A stretch of DNA of 64,000 bases from assembly GCA_020080175.1 (NCBI GenBank), contig JAGHQL010000120.1:19324-83323 (forward strand), read 5' to 3'. This stretch comes from Glutinoglossum americanum (Eukaryota > Ascomycota > Geoglossomycetes > Geoglossales > Geoglossaceae). Numbering within the stretch: position 1 is the first letter of the stretch; each line of letters starts with the position of its first letter. The notes below the pieces were generated by a model. The model did not search any database. It was not told where the DNA came from and saw only the letters and a program-made list of their open reading frames with translations. The translations under genes and the position numbers were made by a program. Positions 33,343 to 63,932 of this stretch are shown in pieces.

Positions 33343-35479
33343 TCAGTGTATCGTAATAACCTCCCATTCAAACGGCATAGAGATCGGCATTGACCAGTGA
33401 GGTCGTAAGGTTTCTAATCCATCTCTGCTCAATCGCGTAGCCGATTTGGGGTTTGGCCTCGACCTATGACCGTAGCGGCCTCCCTGGGCCGGTAGCTGGC
33501 TTGCTGTCATTTGGAGCCTGACCCCCGACGGAGGTGGTCTATATGGAACAGTCTGAGGGATGGGCGGGACCGCGAGAGGTTGGTATCGACTATTTGAAGC
33601 TCGGCATATGCCACATACATCAAACTCTCGCTCGGCGGCGTGCAAATAGCAACTGCCGATCAGAATGTAGTGATCTTCGACAGGTCGGAGTACCATAGGG
33701 ACTTCGGCACCCTCAAGCAGCCATACCGAATCCCCGGTCTGGATATCCGCTGGCCCAAGGCCAAGAGAATATCCCGTGGTGAAAGGACGCCTATGGATGC
33801 CATATCGCTGTATTTTGTTAAAGAATTCATCCAGCTCCTCCATAAAGAAATGCTTGCTTTGCTTGTCCCGACGAAAGGTGGCACAGATGCATCGCCGCTT
33901 GTGAGGCACCACCCAAGAGGGATAGCGCCAGTTCTCCCAGTATAGCCTATCTAGATTCTGGCAGGTATAGCAGAGGCCATGACCTCCAAAGGCTGGAGGT
34001 ACCTCGCCCATGGGCTCTGATGACCCAATTGCTGATGGCCAACCTCCATCATGGCAAGGTGATTGCTGGAGGCGACGTGAAAATTCTTCCCAAAAGTACG
34101 CCTTTAAAGGGCACTGAAAGGAGTCTCGCGCATTTTTCCATTCAACTATTTCCTGTTTCGGTTTAAAATCCACCCAGAGGGATCCGATTCTAAGGCCACC
34201 TACACTCAGAGTAGATTCCGGTATTTCAATTCGTCTCCTAGGCCATATCACCGCCGGGCTAAGGCAGTTCAAGTCTTTTGGGGTGAGATGAGATGAACTT
34301 TTTGAGATCGATGGTAACATAACTGTTGTGGATTTTATTGTCCAGTCAGGTACCCAAGATGGAATGTTTTGCAGTCGTGATTTCCCTGTTACGTAGGAGA
34401 GGATATTTAGAGATTTTTCCTCTTGAATAGACCATGCAGCGACTTGGTGAAAGACTGATCGGACCGACATTGAGTAGTCTACTTTGAAGGGTCTTTGAGA
34501 GCTGTCCTTAATGAGGTTAAAGAGAGCGAACACCTTGTCGCGTGGATCTGTGGCCGAACAGTGTCGAGCGGAGTGAAGAAGGCTTATCAACCGCCAATCT
34601 TTCCCATCGTTGGATGCCAACCCGGAGCGGAATATAAACGGCAAGTCGATCGGTATTTTGCTTGTTCTCAGGCGGTAGAAGAAGTTCTTACAGTCGGCGA
34701 AATTTTTCCACTTGTATGTCGTTCTGCCACAGCATATGATGGCGCGGCGAGCCATGACGACCTCTTGAAGGACCCAGACACGATGGAACCAACGTCTCGA
34801 AAATAGCTCCAATACACTTCTGCTACTGGGCAGTAAGCCAGGAGTCCTTGCCAAGGTACTCGAACAGCCTATCGCTGCTATCTGTTGACTCTCCAAGGTA
34901 AATTACTACTCGAAAGGCATTTTCGAAGATGGTCTTCATGTGATTGACCTGGTGGTTTCGTTCCTTGATGTCGTACTGGTCAATACGGATGGCATCGACC
35001 CAAAGGTGTCTCTTTGAATCCTCCTTTCGCACGCGTCGAAGAGCAGCCTCGCAATTTCCCGTTATGCGAATTAATTTACCACTCGGAAGACATCTTATTC
35101 TACCTGAGAAGCTGGAGTTGCCACAGTCACCGGCCCACGTATATGAGAGCGCTTCATAATGTGGAATGCTAGATAGTGCCGCGTATTCGATTTCGCACTG
35201 GAGCTCGTCTGTGTAGCTCCCCGGTTGAAGAACGAGTAGTCTGATCTCTTGTCTGTGGCTCAGCAAGTCCAACGGCTTGTAGACATAGTCACCAGCCTGC
35301 CTTGAATTGCCAAGTTGCTGGGAGGTAGAGCTTCCATCAGCCTTGCCGGAATTATCTCTCTCCGGTGGTAGATACGTTAAGGAGTTGATGAATGTCATGC
35401 CGCAGCTAAAGCAGCATAGAAATGTGTCAAAATTTCGTGTATCAATATGTCGGCAACGTCTGATAGATTGGTCAGCCAT
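33343..35479 (-). CDS. HET-domain protein (frame break near 34,830)
   Basis: Heterokaryon-incompatibility (HET) domain gene read on the minus strand. The N-terminal section (35479 to about 34,830) has the three HET signatures: HYEALSYTWAGDCGN, RHLWVDAIRIDQYDIKERNH and QVNHMKTIFENAFRVVIYLG. It then runs into TAG while the next frame continues SVLELFSRRWFHRVWVLQEV and 500 more residues to 33,343. The join is either a very short intron (for example GT at 34,848 to an AG near 34,810, 34-43 nt, or GTCAAC from about 34,890, about 64 nt) or a one-base frameshift. The C-terminal part contains a Cys-containing segment (GHGLCYTCQNLDRL) and DSVWLLEGAEVPMVLRPV, typical of the HET C-terminal region. HET proteins trigger programmed death after non-self fusion; activity here depends on whether the break is an intron. 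Total about 710 aa. Confidence 0.8.
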
Positions 35480-59490: not shown

Positions 59491-60568
59491 TCACGGCGTG
59501 CCAGGCAGGTTGACCGTGTCGAGAGACAAGCGAGTTAAGGTCAGGATGTCTATGGTTAGATCCGTGGCCCCCTTAGAGGTCTGGCTGAATGCGTCCCTGT
59601 CCATTGGCATGTCCCAATCAATAGCTTCTCCATCACCTACTATTCCCAGTCTGCCTATCACCCTGTAAGTCCCATCCGCACCTTGACGTAGCAATGCAGA
59701 AGCAGTCGAGTTCCAGAACTGGCAGAGGAAGTCGCCGGTTTTGGAGTTTGGTGGGACAAGACCAAGTGTGACATTTGAGCCGATGAACAGCCTGGGATTG
59801 TCTCGAGAAGGCAGCGAATTCTTTGCTGTACCTTTGCTAAATCCCTGGCTGGAGGGATCCTGGGAGGGCATGTTTGCTTCGAAAGATGCTATGTTCTGGA
59901 TTCTAAAATCTGCTGAGGGACCTAGCAGGCTCATTAGCCGGTCATTCCGACTTCTCGCCTTGTCCAATTCCTCTTTCTTGGGGAAGCGGTCAATGAGACT
60001 AGTTGCCCATTTTTTGGTCGCTTCGGCAGAAGCAAGGATTTCGGAGTATGAGGGCCCAATATGCTGAATTTGACCGATGATGACGCCTCGAATGACAATA
60101 TCTTCAGCCCACATTTCTGAGGACTTATTGAGCCACATTTCTGCAGATTCCGGCTCTGATGGGTACCAGATGCTTGTAAAATCCGCCTTGGGCTTGACGA
60201 AAAAAGAAAGAAGCCAGTTTTTGAAGCTGCTCAAAAGGTCCAAAAAAATGTAATAAACGGACATATTAGCGACATACTCCAACGAACAGTCGTTCTCACT
60301 ACAAAACTTATTTATCCAAGACCCGGCTTCCCAAAGTTTGCCGATCTGTATTACAGGCGTTTTTCTCAACCCAGACTTTCGAGAGAGGAGCCGCCGGACT
60401 AGTCCGCTCAAGTATACCATATCCACCCGCTTCTCAGTTGGCTCAAGTGCAGATATATTTTGAAATGCGATGATGTCTTGGTAGACGGCAAGGGGAAACT
60501 TTGCATAGTCTACCGGTAACTGTCCTTTCGACTGATCATTCGCTATCCCGATGAAAGCATATATTTTA
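59491..60568 (-). pseudogene. HET-domain gene, C-terminal part (3' of the MULE insertion)
   Basis: This continues the HET gene of 62,958-63,932 after the transposon. It begins in frame with KIYAFIGIANDQSKGQLPVD and runs to the stop at 59,491. It has a typical HET-protein C-terminus: GDFLCQFWNSTASALLRQGA and YRVIGRLGIVGDGEAIDWDM. The TATATTTTA at 60,560-60,568 is the left copy of the 9-bp target duplication. In this piece the frame is open, so loss of function comes from the insertion and from the frameshift in the other part. Confidence 0.85.
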
Positions 60569-60649
60569 GGGCGATTTACCCGGATACCATGGTTTTCGAA
60601 AGATATTACCGCGATACCACAAACTTCAATTTTTATTACTTTTCTACCA
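60569..60649. repeat. Left terminal inverted repeat of the MULE
   Basis: 81 bp; reverse complement of 62,510-62,590 with three mismatches. Confidence 0.9.
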
Positions 60650-60752
60650 CGATTTGACTTCAGACTGCATGTGCATTGCATATGCCCACAATCAAAAATT
60701 TTCGAAGTGAAATTTCTTTCTCTCTTAATATCTACTAGCGCTATATGTTGCG

Positions 60753-62502
60753 ATGCCTCCTACTGCTATTCCTGAGCCTCTAAATACAGAGTTTGAATCG
60801 CTGGATGCTGCTATTCAAGCTGTAAAGCTTTTTGTTATCTCAGAAAGAGAGTCTTACCTAGTTTCTTATGCTGATCGCACACGATATATTCTTACCTGTC
60901 GGGATTCCTCATGCAAATTTGGTATTAGAGCAGCTGTATTGAAAGGACCTAAGTTTCGTGTTACTCGCTATTCTCCTCATACCTGTAGTCCTCTTGTTCA
61001 TTAAAATTTTCGTCCAGCTCACTCTGTTAGTTTTTTAGCTGAACGGCATAGGCAAACGGTAGCAGAGAATCGGAATACCTTACCCGCTCAGATCTGAAGT
61101 ACAGAAAGAGTTCAATTTGGAAATAGAGGGGTTAGCTATCAGTAAGCGTGGCGGACACAGGAAGCTTTAAGAGCAGAGCTTGAAAGAGATGAAGCTTCTA
61201 GCTTCAGAAAAATGCCTGGATTAATAGATTCTTGGAAAGATGGAGACGAGAAAAACTGGGGAACAGTCGAAAACATGAATAGTCAATTCCATTACGCCTT
61301 TATTGCTCCTGCTGCAACTCGTGCTGCATTTGAAGCATGTCGCTCTCTAATTGCTCTGGACGCATGTCATACCAAATCCCGATACCGAATGACACTCTTC
61401 GTTGCTAGTATAGTCGATGGCAATAATGAAATCCTTCCATTAGTATGGGCTATAGCACCAATTGAAGATGTTGAAAATTGGATATGGTTTTTAGAAAACT
61501 TAAAGGATACTCTATATAAAATAGAGGAAGCTATCCTAGTGCTAATCAGTGATCGTGATAAAGGGTTACAGAAGGCTGTACAACAGGTTCTCCCTAAGTC
61601 ATTTCACTCGCACTGCTGTCAACATCTTGTCGACAATATCCAAACAAGATATGGATTGGTATGTCGAAACCTTTTCTGGAACGCTGCTAAAGCATTCACC
61701 GAAAATGAGTTTCAAACAGCAATAGACAAAATTAAAGATCGAAAGGATGCTGCATATCAGTATATTGAGAGTATATCTCACGATTCTTGGGCACAATATA
61801 CATTTCCAGCTCCTCGATTTGGGCATATCACCTCTAACATTGCCGAATCTCTCAATTTTTCTTGGAACGAATACCGTCATCTTCCTATTCTACGTTTGTT
61901 CATCTCGATCTGGTCAAAATTGATGACTACTTTTCACTATCGTCGGCATCAAACTCAAAAGAATAACCGCATTACCGATTATGCATATCAGCATATATCT
62001 CGAAGCTTTCAACATGCACGGAGGTTTAAAGTTGATCTAGCTGGTGATGAAATAGCTCAAGTATGTACTTCTAATTATATTTATAATATAGCTAATAACA
62101 AATTAGGTATATATTCCAAACGGAATCAGCCATGTCGTAAACCTCAGAAGGCGGACTTGTACCTGCGGTGAGTTTCAGGAATTTTTAATTCCTTGCTGTC
62201 ATGCTGTTGCTGCATGCCTTTGGTTAGTAGAAGATCCATATGAGTATGTTGATCGATTGTATTCACTAGAATACTATCGATTAACTTATTCACGAATGAT
62301 GTCCCCAATTTGTGAAGAAGATCTTATAGAAGAGCATGATGAATGCAATGCTCCCGAATTGGGTAAACAGCAGGGAAGGCCTAAGAAAAGTAGGCATCGT
62401 CGAGGAGAGAAGGTCAGAAAGCTGTTCTGCGGGCATTGTGGGCAACAGGGTCACAACCGGAGGAGTTGTCGAAATGTAACACAATCACAAGTGCAAGTAT
62501 GA
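60753..62502 (+). pseudogene. MULE transposase with SWIM zinc finger and zinc knuckle
   Basis: From ATG at 60,753 a FAR1-like N-terminal domain is seen (YLVSYADRTRYILTCRDSSC, RVTRYSPHTCSPLVH). Three stops then follow in the same frame (TAA at about 61,002, TGA near 61,096, TAA near 61,142), each explained by C-to-T in CAA or CGA. The frame then stays open for the MULE DDE domain: LIALDACHTKSRYRMTLFVA (Asp), LISDRDKGLQKAVQQVLP with HCCQHLVDNIQ (Asp, CxxH), and HITSNIAESLNFSWNEYRHL (Glu). A +1 frameshift near 62,150 leads to the SWIM finger (TCTCGEFQEFLIPCCHAVAA) and a zinc knuckle (CGHCGQQGHNRRSC) ending at 62,502. Catalytic residues are kept but the gene cannot make a full protein. About 580 aa expected. 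Confidence 0.9.
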
Positions 62503-62509
62503 AATATTA

Positions 62510-62590
62510 TGGTAGAGAAGTAATAAAAATTGAAGTTTGTGGTATCGCGGTAATATCTTTCAAAAACCATGGTATCCGGGTAAATCGTCC
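62510..62590. repeat. Right terminal inverted repeat of the inner complete MULE
   Basis: 81 bp matching 60,569-60,649 in inverted orientation with three mismatches. Confidence 0.9.
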
Positions 62591-62602
62591 TAATTTTATT
62601 TA

Positions 62603-62957
62603 GGGCAAATTACTTACATACCACTTTTTTCAAAAGATATTACAAGAATGTGTACTGAATTCTGTACACATTCTTGTATTGTAAGTCACATACACCCTTA
62701 ACCCAATTTGAATCTATGATAAATGCAATGCTCCTGAATTGAGTAGACAGTGGGAAAGGCCTAAAAAAAGTAGGCTTTGTCGAGGAGAGAAGGCTAGGAA
62801 GCTTCTTTGTGGACATTGTGAACAGCAAAGTCATAATCAGCGGAATTGTCGAAATGCAGCACAGGTATGAGAATTGTGGTATACGAGTAATTAAAATTGA
62901 AATTCGTGGTATTGCAGTAATATCTTTTGAAAAAGGTGGTATGCGAGTAATTTGCCC
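62603..62957. mobile_element. Deleted MULE derivative with own inverted repeats
   Basis: 355 bp with ends GGGCAAATTACTTACATACC and, as complement at the right, GGGCAAATTACTCGCATACC. The inside keeps a decayed copy of the transposase tail (around 62,720-62,870, similar to 62,345-62,500, including the zinc-knuckle codons) and a 15-bp-arm palindrome at 62,641-62,678. It has no 9-bp duplication of its own. Confidence 0.8.
62641..62678. repeat. Perfect palindrome in the MULE derivative
   Basis: Arms TACAAGAATGTGTAC (62,641-62,655) and GTACACATTCTTGTA (62,664-62,678) around an 8-nt centre. It could form a hairpin, and it sits where the left inverted repeat of the derivative ends. Confidence 0.85.
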
Positions 62958-63932
62958 TATATTTTATCAAGTGGGACCGTGCAGAAAGAATCGCGGAAGG
63001 TATCTAGGAAGCTACCCAGAGCATAACTCTCTCCATCTCGGACTTTCGACTCCCGTAAGTGGTCTAGTTTGAGAACATTTTCTACCGCCACGTCGGCAGT
63101 ATGTTCGTTATAGATTTTGGCGGCCGCGAGAAATACTTCCCAGTGGAGAGATTGCCGTCCAAAATGGACCTGGATGCGAGAAGCCACGCCGATCTCTTGT
63201 ATGATCCAGGCGTTTCCAATATTCTTCGCGTACTATCTGATAAAGCCAGAATTTTGTCGTCTTCCAGGCTATCTCATTCCCGGGAATGGGCCAGTCTTTG
63301 GTTCGATCTGAGGCCTTGCCGTGCTCGATCCAGTATAGAGGTTGGCAATATTGTAGCCAGACAAGTACCTCTCGCGCTCGGCTATAGGTAAATGACATGA
63401 GTGGAACTTGCTGGTTTTTCTCAGTTGTATTTCTCTGGTCAATACAGATTGCATCGACCCAGAGAAGTCGGGGTTCATCGGGATGGCGCAGGTCATGCAG
63501 GGCATTCCAGAGGTTTTCCGTTACCTCCATCTTTGCACCGTTGACCGCGATTATCTTAGTGGGCTTAGGGTCACCCCATGTATAGGAAAGCGCGCTGTAG
63601 TTCGGATTGTCAACGAACCGAGCGGACTCAAGTTTACATTGGATCGTCTGGGACCCTGTGCCGGGCAGGACGTGGAGTATTCGAAGGCTGTCCGTCGAGG
63701 GATCCAGAGGAGGATAGACCACCTTGGTACTTAAATGTAAAGGGTCTGAAAATAGGTATATGATAGTGGCAATGATAATCGCTAGGACGACACATAGCGA
63801 GAACCAGGCGACCGGTTTTCTAGCCTCAACCACCCGACTTCGCTGGACATGGGAACCCAGCAGAGGCGTGGTCTCCTGGGGTTCTCTCATAGCGTCGTTC
63901 ATGGAAGAAGCAGAATTGTAGATAGTCACCAA
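62958..63932 (-). pseudogene. HET-domain gene, N-terminal part, with membrane segment
   Basis: Minus-strand frame from Met at 63,932 (other Mets follow soon after). A membrane segment (VAWFSLCVVLAIIIATIIYL) precedes the HET domain: NYSALSYTWGDPKPTKI, then LLWVDAICIDQRNTTEKNQQ and FTYSRAREVLVWL. After REEYWKRL the frame is lost and continues shifted by one base as WIIQEIGVASRIQVHFGRQS, up to SFCTVPLDK, where the MULE begins. The right target duplication (62,958-62,966) lies at this join. With the C-terminal part the intact protein would have been about 680 aa. Confidence 0.85.

Follow-up and report, generated by a model that had tools for sequence, protein, structure and literature searches.

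The Ac and Ds elements of maize belong to the hAT superfamily, and the elements of an Ac/Ds macrotransposon are reportedly in direct orientation, as Huang and Dooner are said to have described in 2008. When such a macrotransposon moves, one end of each of two linked elements act together and everything between them is carried along (PMC9910405, PMC3260210). Other arrangements with more than one pair of ends are found among the Mutator-like elements (MULEs) of plants, where the external and internal TIRs of multi-TIR elements resemble each other for 100 bp or more (Ferguson and Jiang 2012, PMC3310237), and where elements with one additional TIR are described as having hardly amplified (PMC3310237). 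For AgaP2-P12MITE of Anopheles, tandem macrotransposition is suggested by the authors as a possible origin (PMC1562414). The principle of macrotransposition is already known, from Ac/Ds in maize and, in part, from the multi-TIR MULEs of plants. Here, we describe a composite of two fungal MULEs which is very probably a MULE macrotransposon, that is, a pair of elements that moved as one unit.

Results

The stretch of DNA analysed, hereafter the window, is 64 kb long (C25:19324-83323) and reaches the end of its contig, in a genome of 25.8 Mb assembled in 317 contigs; match counts across this genome are lower bounds throughout. A composite of two MULEs, E1 and E2, located at 60560-62966 including its duplications, interrupts a HET-domain gene encoded on the minus strand. 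The features of the locus, in window coordinates, are as follows.

59494-63902, minus strand: interrupted HET-domain gene, in open pieces 63902-63210, 63208-62960 and 60567-59494
60560-60568, no strand: left 9-bp target site duplication, TATATTTTA
60569-62590, plus strand: E1, a 2022-bp MULE supplying the left outer end of the composite, with a broken transposase frame; identified by its TIRs (78/81) and by Pfam
60569-60649, plus strand: left TIR of E1, the outer left end of the composite
60729-61001, plus strand: open E1 transposase piece carrying the MuDR DNA-binding domain (DBD_Tnp_Mut, PF03108; E 7.9e-07)
61146-62168, plus strand: open E1 transposase piece carrying the MULE catalytic domain (PF10551; E 4.2e-17)
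62107-62499, plus strand: open piece with a SWIM zinc finger (PF04434; E 2.6e-07)
62510-62590, minus strand: right TIR of E1, now internal
62591-62602, no strand: 12-bp spacer, TAATTTTATTTA, unchanged (0/12 differ) in a second copy of the pair, on contig C168
62603-62957, plus strand: E2, a MULE from a sister subfamily, internally deleted, 355 bp long and oriented like E1
62603-62643, plus strand: left TIR of E2, 41 bp, internal
62642-62677, no strand: 36-bp near-palindrome inside E2, symmetric at 34/36 positions in both copies
62917-62957, minus strand: right TIR of E2, the outer right end of the composite
62958-62966, no strand: right 9-bp target site duplication, TATATTTTA

The two TIRs of E1 match at 78 of 81 positions in an ungapped alignment. 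Its open pieces also matched PF00872 (E 6.3e-11), and a Cys/His knuckle-like C-terminal stretch can be recognized by eye on the piece with the SWIM finger (62107-62499). The frame of E1 is now broken in both copies of the pair: a stop at 61002-61004 is common to the two, unless it lies inside an intron, and the catalytic piece of the C168 copy has five further stops. In E2 the two TIRs agree at 38 of 41 positions. The element has kept a stretch akin to the E1 3' end (75% identity over about 250 bp, in the same orientation), and no Mutator-type transposase domain is left in it. The near-palindrome at 62642-62677 lies beside its left TIR and is possibly the scar of the internal deletion. The earlier note had seen here two sub-elements 12 bp apart, one complete and the other deleted; the spacing stands, and so does the completeness of E1 as a structure, yet with its transposase frame broken E1 cannot be equated with an autonomous element.

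E1 and E2 are in direct orientation, and the outer ends of the composite form an inverted pair. Of 81 positions compared, the outer ends (E1 left and E2 right) share 65 and the inner ends (E1 right and E2 left) 40, against 78 for the two ends of E1 itself. Over 41 positions, the left TIR of E2 matches the right TIR of E1 at 29, and its right TIR matches the left TIR of E1 at 33. When the right TIRs of E2 and E1 are compared, about 100 bp can be aligned, with many mismatches and a score of 126 (165 for E1's own ends). These figures bear on the possibility that the composite is a single MULE that acquired additional terminal sequence on its right side through slippage, capture or aberrant repair, in which case it would still move as a unit. 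Such elements are described in tomato, rice, maize and Arabidopsis, and in tomato the duplication lies outside with none at the internal TIR (PMC3310237); moreover, E2 resembles the 3' end of E1, and no solo E2 was found in our genome searches. However, E2 owns both a left and a right TIR, which resemble one another far more closely (38/41) than they resemble those of E1 (29/41 and 33/41), and the 12 AT-rich bp between the elements agree with an insertion into or next to a duplication. We thus consider the gain of an extra end unlikely, and prefer to regard the composite as two elements that joined.

Evidence for movement of the pair comes from the target site. TATATTTTA directly abuts the left terminus of E1 and the right terminus of E2, with no gap, and it is found in the 64-kb window twice on the plus strand and not at all on the minus strand. 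This is the exact 9-bp duplication on both sides that the earlier note had reported, at 60560-60568 and 62958-62966, and it is confirmed at the outer termini. The flanking 9-mers match at 9 of 9 positions around the pair, at 5 of 9 around E1 alone and at 6 of 9 around E2 alone; with the outer pair excluded, five pairs of 9-mers beside the elements are alike at 4 to 6 of 9 positions. All of these 9-mers are AT-rich, which raises the level of similarity expected by chance and which we count against macrotransposition. Any two 9-mers of the window are identical with a chance of 5e-6, and two random ones with at least eight A/T with a chance of 7.7e-4. The composite combines a Mutator-type transposase domain, TIRs and a duplication inside the 8-11 bp range, by which the MULE superfamily is recognized, and at the HET copy, where both outer ends are visible, it bears the mark of a macrotransposon, a single duplication outside the pair and none for each element.

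The start and the end of the HET gene were picked by eye from the translations. Pfam identified the HET domain on the upstream piece (E 2.3e-24) and gave no match, at E 0.1, on the 83-aa middle piece or on the 358-aa downstream piece. The earlier note had read VPLDK on one side of the insertion and KIYAFIG on the other, and on the minus strand these lie upstream and downstream, respectively; the two sides were translated apart, and the frame running from VPLDK into IYAFIG follows when one copy of the duplication is counted. By eye, the frame seems to change also upstream of the insertion, around 63.2 kb. This second frame change, near 63200, may make the HET gene a pseudogene for a second reason, or may be a sequencing error. 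The upstream piece has at least 30 matching stretches in the genome, itself included, of which the best other is 38% identical; a HET paralogue was considered as an empty site and rejected, because these relatives are too distant. The downstream piece matches itself alone in this genome (at least one match). A second HET-domain stretch lies in the window at 34895-35287 (C25:54218-54610, minus strand; 40% identical over the match), and the genome is rich in HET genes, which suggests that it is that of a filamentous fungus.

Whole-genome searches with E1 and with E2 revealed a second copy of the pair, reversed, at C168:166-2508. The order and orientation of the elements and the 12-bp spacer are all the same as at the HET site, and an ungapped alignment of the two copies gives 96.3% identity over 2348 bp, with 79/2022 differences in E1, 0/12 in the spacer and 7/309 in E2, that is, with similar divergence of E1 and E2. 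A stretch of 85 bp across the join is matched over its full length in at least two places, both accounted for by C25 and C168. The left flank on C168, which alone can be compared, departs from the HET flank at the terminus of E1. It is a run of T, through which the ungapped alignment extends 5 bp beyond the terminus with 4 of the 5 positions matching. Within 40 bp of the terminus the left flanks also share a 13-bp near match with two differences and a 5-bp offset, a similarity equalled by 8 of 300 shuffles; over longer distances the observed similarity was reached by 145/300 (100 bp), 299/300 (300 bp) and 245/300 (1000 bp) shuffles, so that we read the near match as chance or as target taste. 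The T-run overlap and the 13-bp near match are counted as small points against macrotransposition. Among the matches to the HET gene, at least 30 for the upstream piece and at least one for the downstream piece, no homologue on C168 was found.

At its right end the C168 copy is without the last 46 bp of E2, because another element inserted there: at a TA, E2 gives way to the terminal part of an inverted-repeat element, and C168 ends 165 bp past the cut, so that only the left boundary of the copy is visible. The cutting sequence (C168 1-165) is the end of a TA-inserting inverted-repeat element with at least 36 matching stretches in the genome, a relative of which, of about 2.1 kb (C266:60542-62698), has by eye TA on both sides. 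A search with the right TIR of E2 found no further piece of the remaining part of this right end. Contig C233 was examined by eye as a candidate for the missing part and rejected, since after an initial 92 bp similar to the inserted element's end it runs on into other sequence.

These comparisons show that the pair has been copied as a block at least once, and that at the HET site a single duplication encloses the whole composite. Since the join is shared by C25 and C168, the pair was copied after the join had formed, so that the joining predates one insertion or both. The earlier note had proposed a genome-wide search for the same arrangement and its flanks, and had held that two sub-elements never found together elsewhere, along with a strain carrying just one of them here with the same duplication, would speak for later insertion or recombination; the pair is found together on C168 as well, beside a different left flank that begins at the terminus of E1. 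It could be argued that the C168 copy derives from segmental duplication or ectopic recombination rather than from transposition of the pair, as its right end is incomplete and, with the contig stopping 165 bp on, one boundary is out of view. However, its left boundary coincides with the terminus of the E1 TIR, save for a few T, the flank shared with the HET site does not exceed chance over 100 bp or more, and the HET copy has the exact duplication at both outer ends, making this explanation very improbable. The left boundary on C168 and the exact duplication at the HET site fit transposition of the pair by its outer ends, the left one from E1 and the right one from E2.

Inside the element the two copies differ at 86 positions, in all cases by transitions, and the sole transversion is located in the flank. 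Relative to its frequency, C before G is the most often changed. The decay resembles RIP or the loss of methylated cytosine, and with decay of this kind the divergence between the copies is no clock. The differences are sparse and then dense along E1, with 7 in the first 640 bp (60569-61208) and 72/1382 thereafter (61209-62590), suggestive of patchy RIP-like decay or of gene conversion.

Genome searches with the whole elements and with one TIR of each found no close solo E1 or E2, although solo copies may be hidden by the 317-contig assembly. For the E1 end there are at least four matches, of which 4/4 come from the two pairs; for the right TIR of E2 there are at least six, located at the pairs and on C9 (81%) and C91 (78%). 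Only two copies of the pair were found in the genome, one of them with a single boundary visible, and we count this too against macrotransposition. MULEs more distant from E1 match parts of it at about 64-68% identity. The catalytic piece of E1 gave at least 25 matching stretches in this genome, itself included. Inverted arms were present in 19 of 29 scanned loci, several of which overlap. Ten loci, picked by hand, were tested for duplications with the ends allowed to shift by up to 10 bp; an exact 9-bp repeat was found at GGG- or GAG-...-CCC ends in five (C274, C101, C257, C307 and C88), four of these five repeats being AT-rich, whereas C263 has a duplication of 9 or 10 bp, depending on where the ends are placed, C136 has one of 8 bp, and three loci (C74 and two on C302) have none. 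Because five of the ten loci carry exact 9-bp repeats, a 9-bp duplication is a habit of this MULE group, and the unit bounded at the HET site is therefore the pair.

A related 4.3-kb MULE on C274 (L033 90-4361) has 141-bp arms that are 98% identical and an exact 9-bp duplication, TATATAGAA. Another MULE, on C101, has a duplication of its own, ATAAAATTA, and at its left edge (C101:142950-142965) 16 bp, TAAATAAAATTAGGGC, that equal the spacer/E1 join of C168. Beyond this 16-mer and an AT-rich flank no similarity between the two places was found, and the match is probably due to chance or to a shared target preference. A near match on C156 was set aside, as no MULE end is visible there. An initial pattern search gave two AT-rich places and was uninformative, and when relatives were sought in viral contigs, six pattern matches came up, of which none was confirmed.

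Discussion

The pair occurs on C168 in the same order and orientation, with the same 12-bp spacer and beside another left flank, in support of the first of the two readings offered by the earlier note, movement as one unit, over recombination that joined two elements after a single insertion. That E1 and E2 instead entered the HET gene independently, next to one another, the outer 9-mer being shared by coincidence or belonging to one element, draws on the AT-rich and partly alike 9-mers beside the elements (4 to 6 of 9), but is scarcely credible given the same join and spacer beside a different left flank on C168, since the block would then have had to be copied later to C168, again a movement of the pair.

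How might the macrotransposon have arisen? At its founding, E1 and E2, a short deletion derivative of a sister subfamily, would have ended up pointing the same way with 12 bp between them, a length that could be made up of the 9 bp duplicated by one founding insertion and 3 further bp. A MULE transposase, supplied in trans or encoded by E1 before its decay, would then have brought together the left terminus of E1 and the right terminus of E2, carrying everything between these outer ends to a new site and making one 9-bp duplication there. With 65/81 identity between the outer ends, against 78/81 for those of E1, the transposase would have accepted a hybrid pair. Either of the two copies may have been the donor. 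Afterwards, both copies decayed by transitions. More tentatively, the dimer could be a mobile family of its own, a fungal MULE transposase accepting the hybrid ends of two subfamilies and the fused pair, not its parts, having spread and persisted here; we regard this as doubtful.

The locus is a fungal case, still readable, in which two DNA transposons have fused to form a single mobile unit whose ends come from different subfamilies, and in which a HET gene, of the kind involved in self/non-self recognition, was disrupted by the fused unit. A fusion of this type has been put forward as a step in the origin of a MITE with hybrid ends (PMC1562414). As the mechanism is known elsewhere, the interest of the case is moderate. 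For the same reason, the view of the earlier note that a tandem pair acting as a single unit is unusual holds in part only, plant MULEs with additional TIRs (PMC3310237) and maize macrotransposons (PMC9910405) being on record.

E1 is like the fungal Hop and related MULEs in its Mutator transposase with zinc fingers, and the duplication falls within the 8-11 bp of MULEs (PMC6446971). In the main text of the account of the Hop group the words "composite" and "tandem" occur 0 times (PMC6446971). A targeted literature search, with most subscription papers outside its scope, found no composite or tandem MULE in fungi, which is weak evidence. Like the multi-TIR MULEs of plants, some of which are multicopy, the composite has extra internal terminal sequence and a duplication around the outside (PMC3310237). 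Unlike them, it consists of a complete element and, behind it, a short one from a different subfamily; it comes from a fungus and is present in two copies, and at its right end the external and internal TIRs are not alike over 100 bp or more. With the Ac/Ds macrotransposons it shares two linked elements and the single target duplication left by them (PMC9910405, PMC3260210); there, however, the duplication is of 8 bp (PMC9910405), whereas here a MULE unit has one of 9 bp and the ends of two subfamilies. Finally, as in AgaP2-P12MITE, the ends of two related subfamilies are found in one mobile unit (PMC1562414). That case involves P elements, a MITE and an 8-bp duplication (PMC1562414), whereas in the fungal composite both elements and the join between them can still be read.
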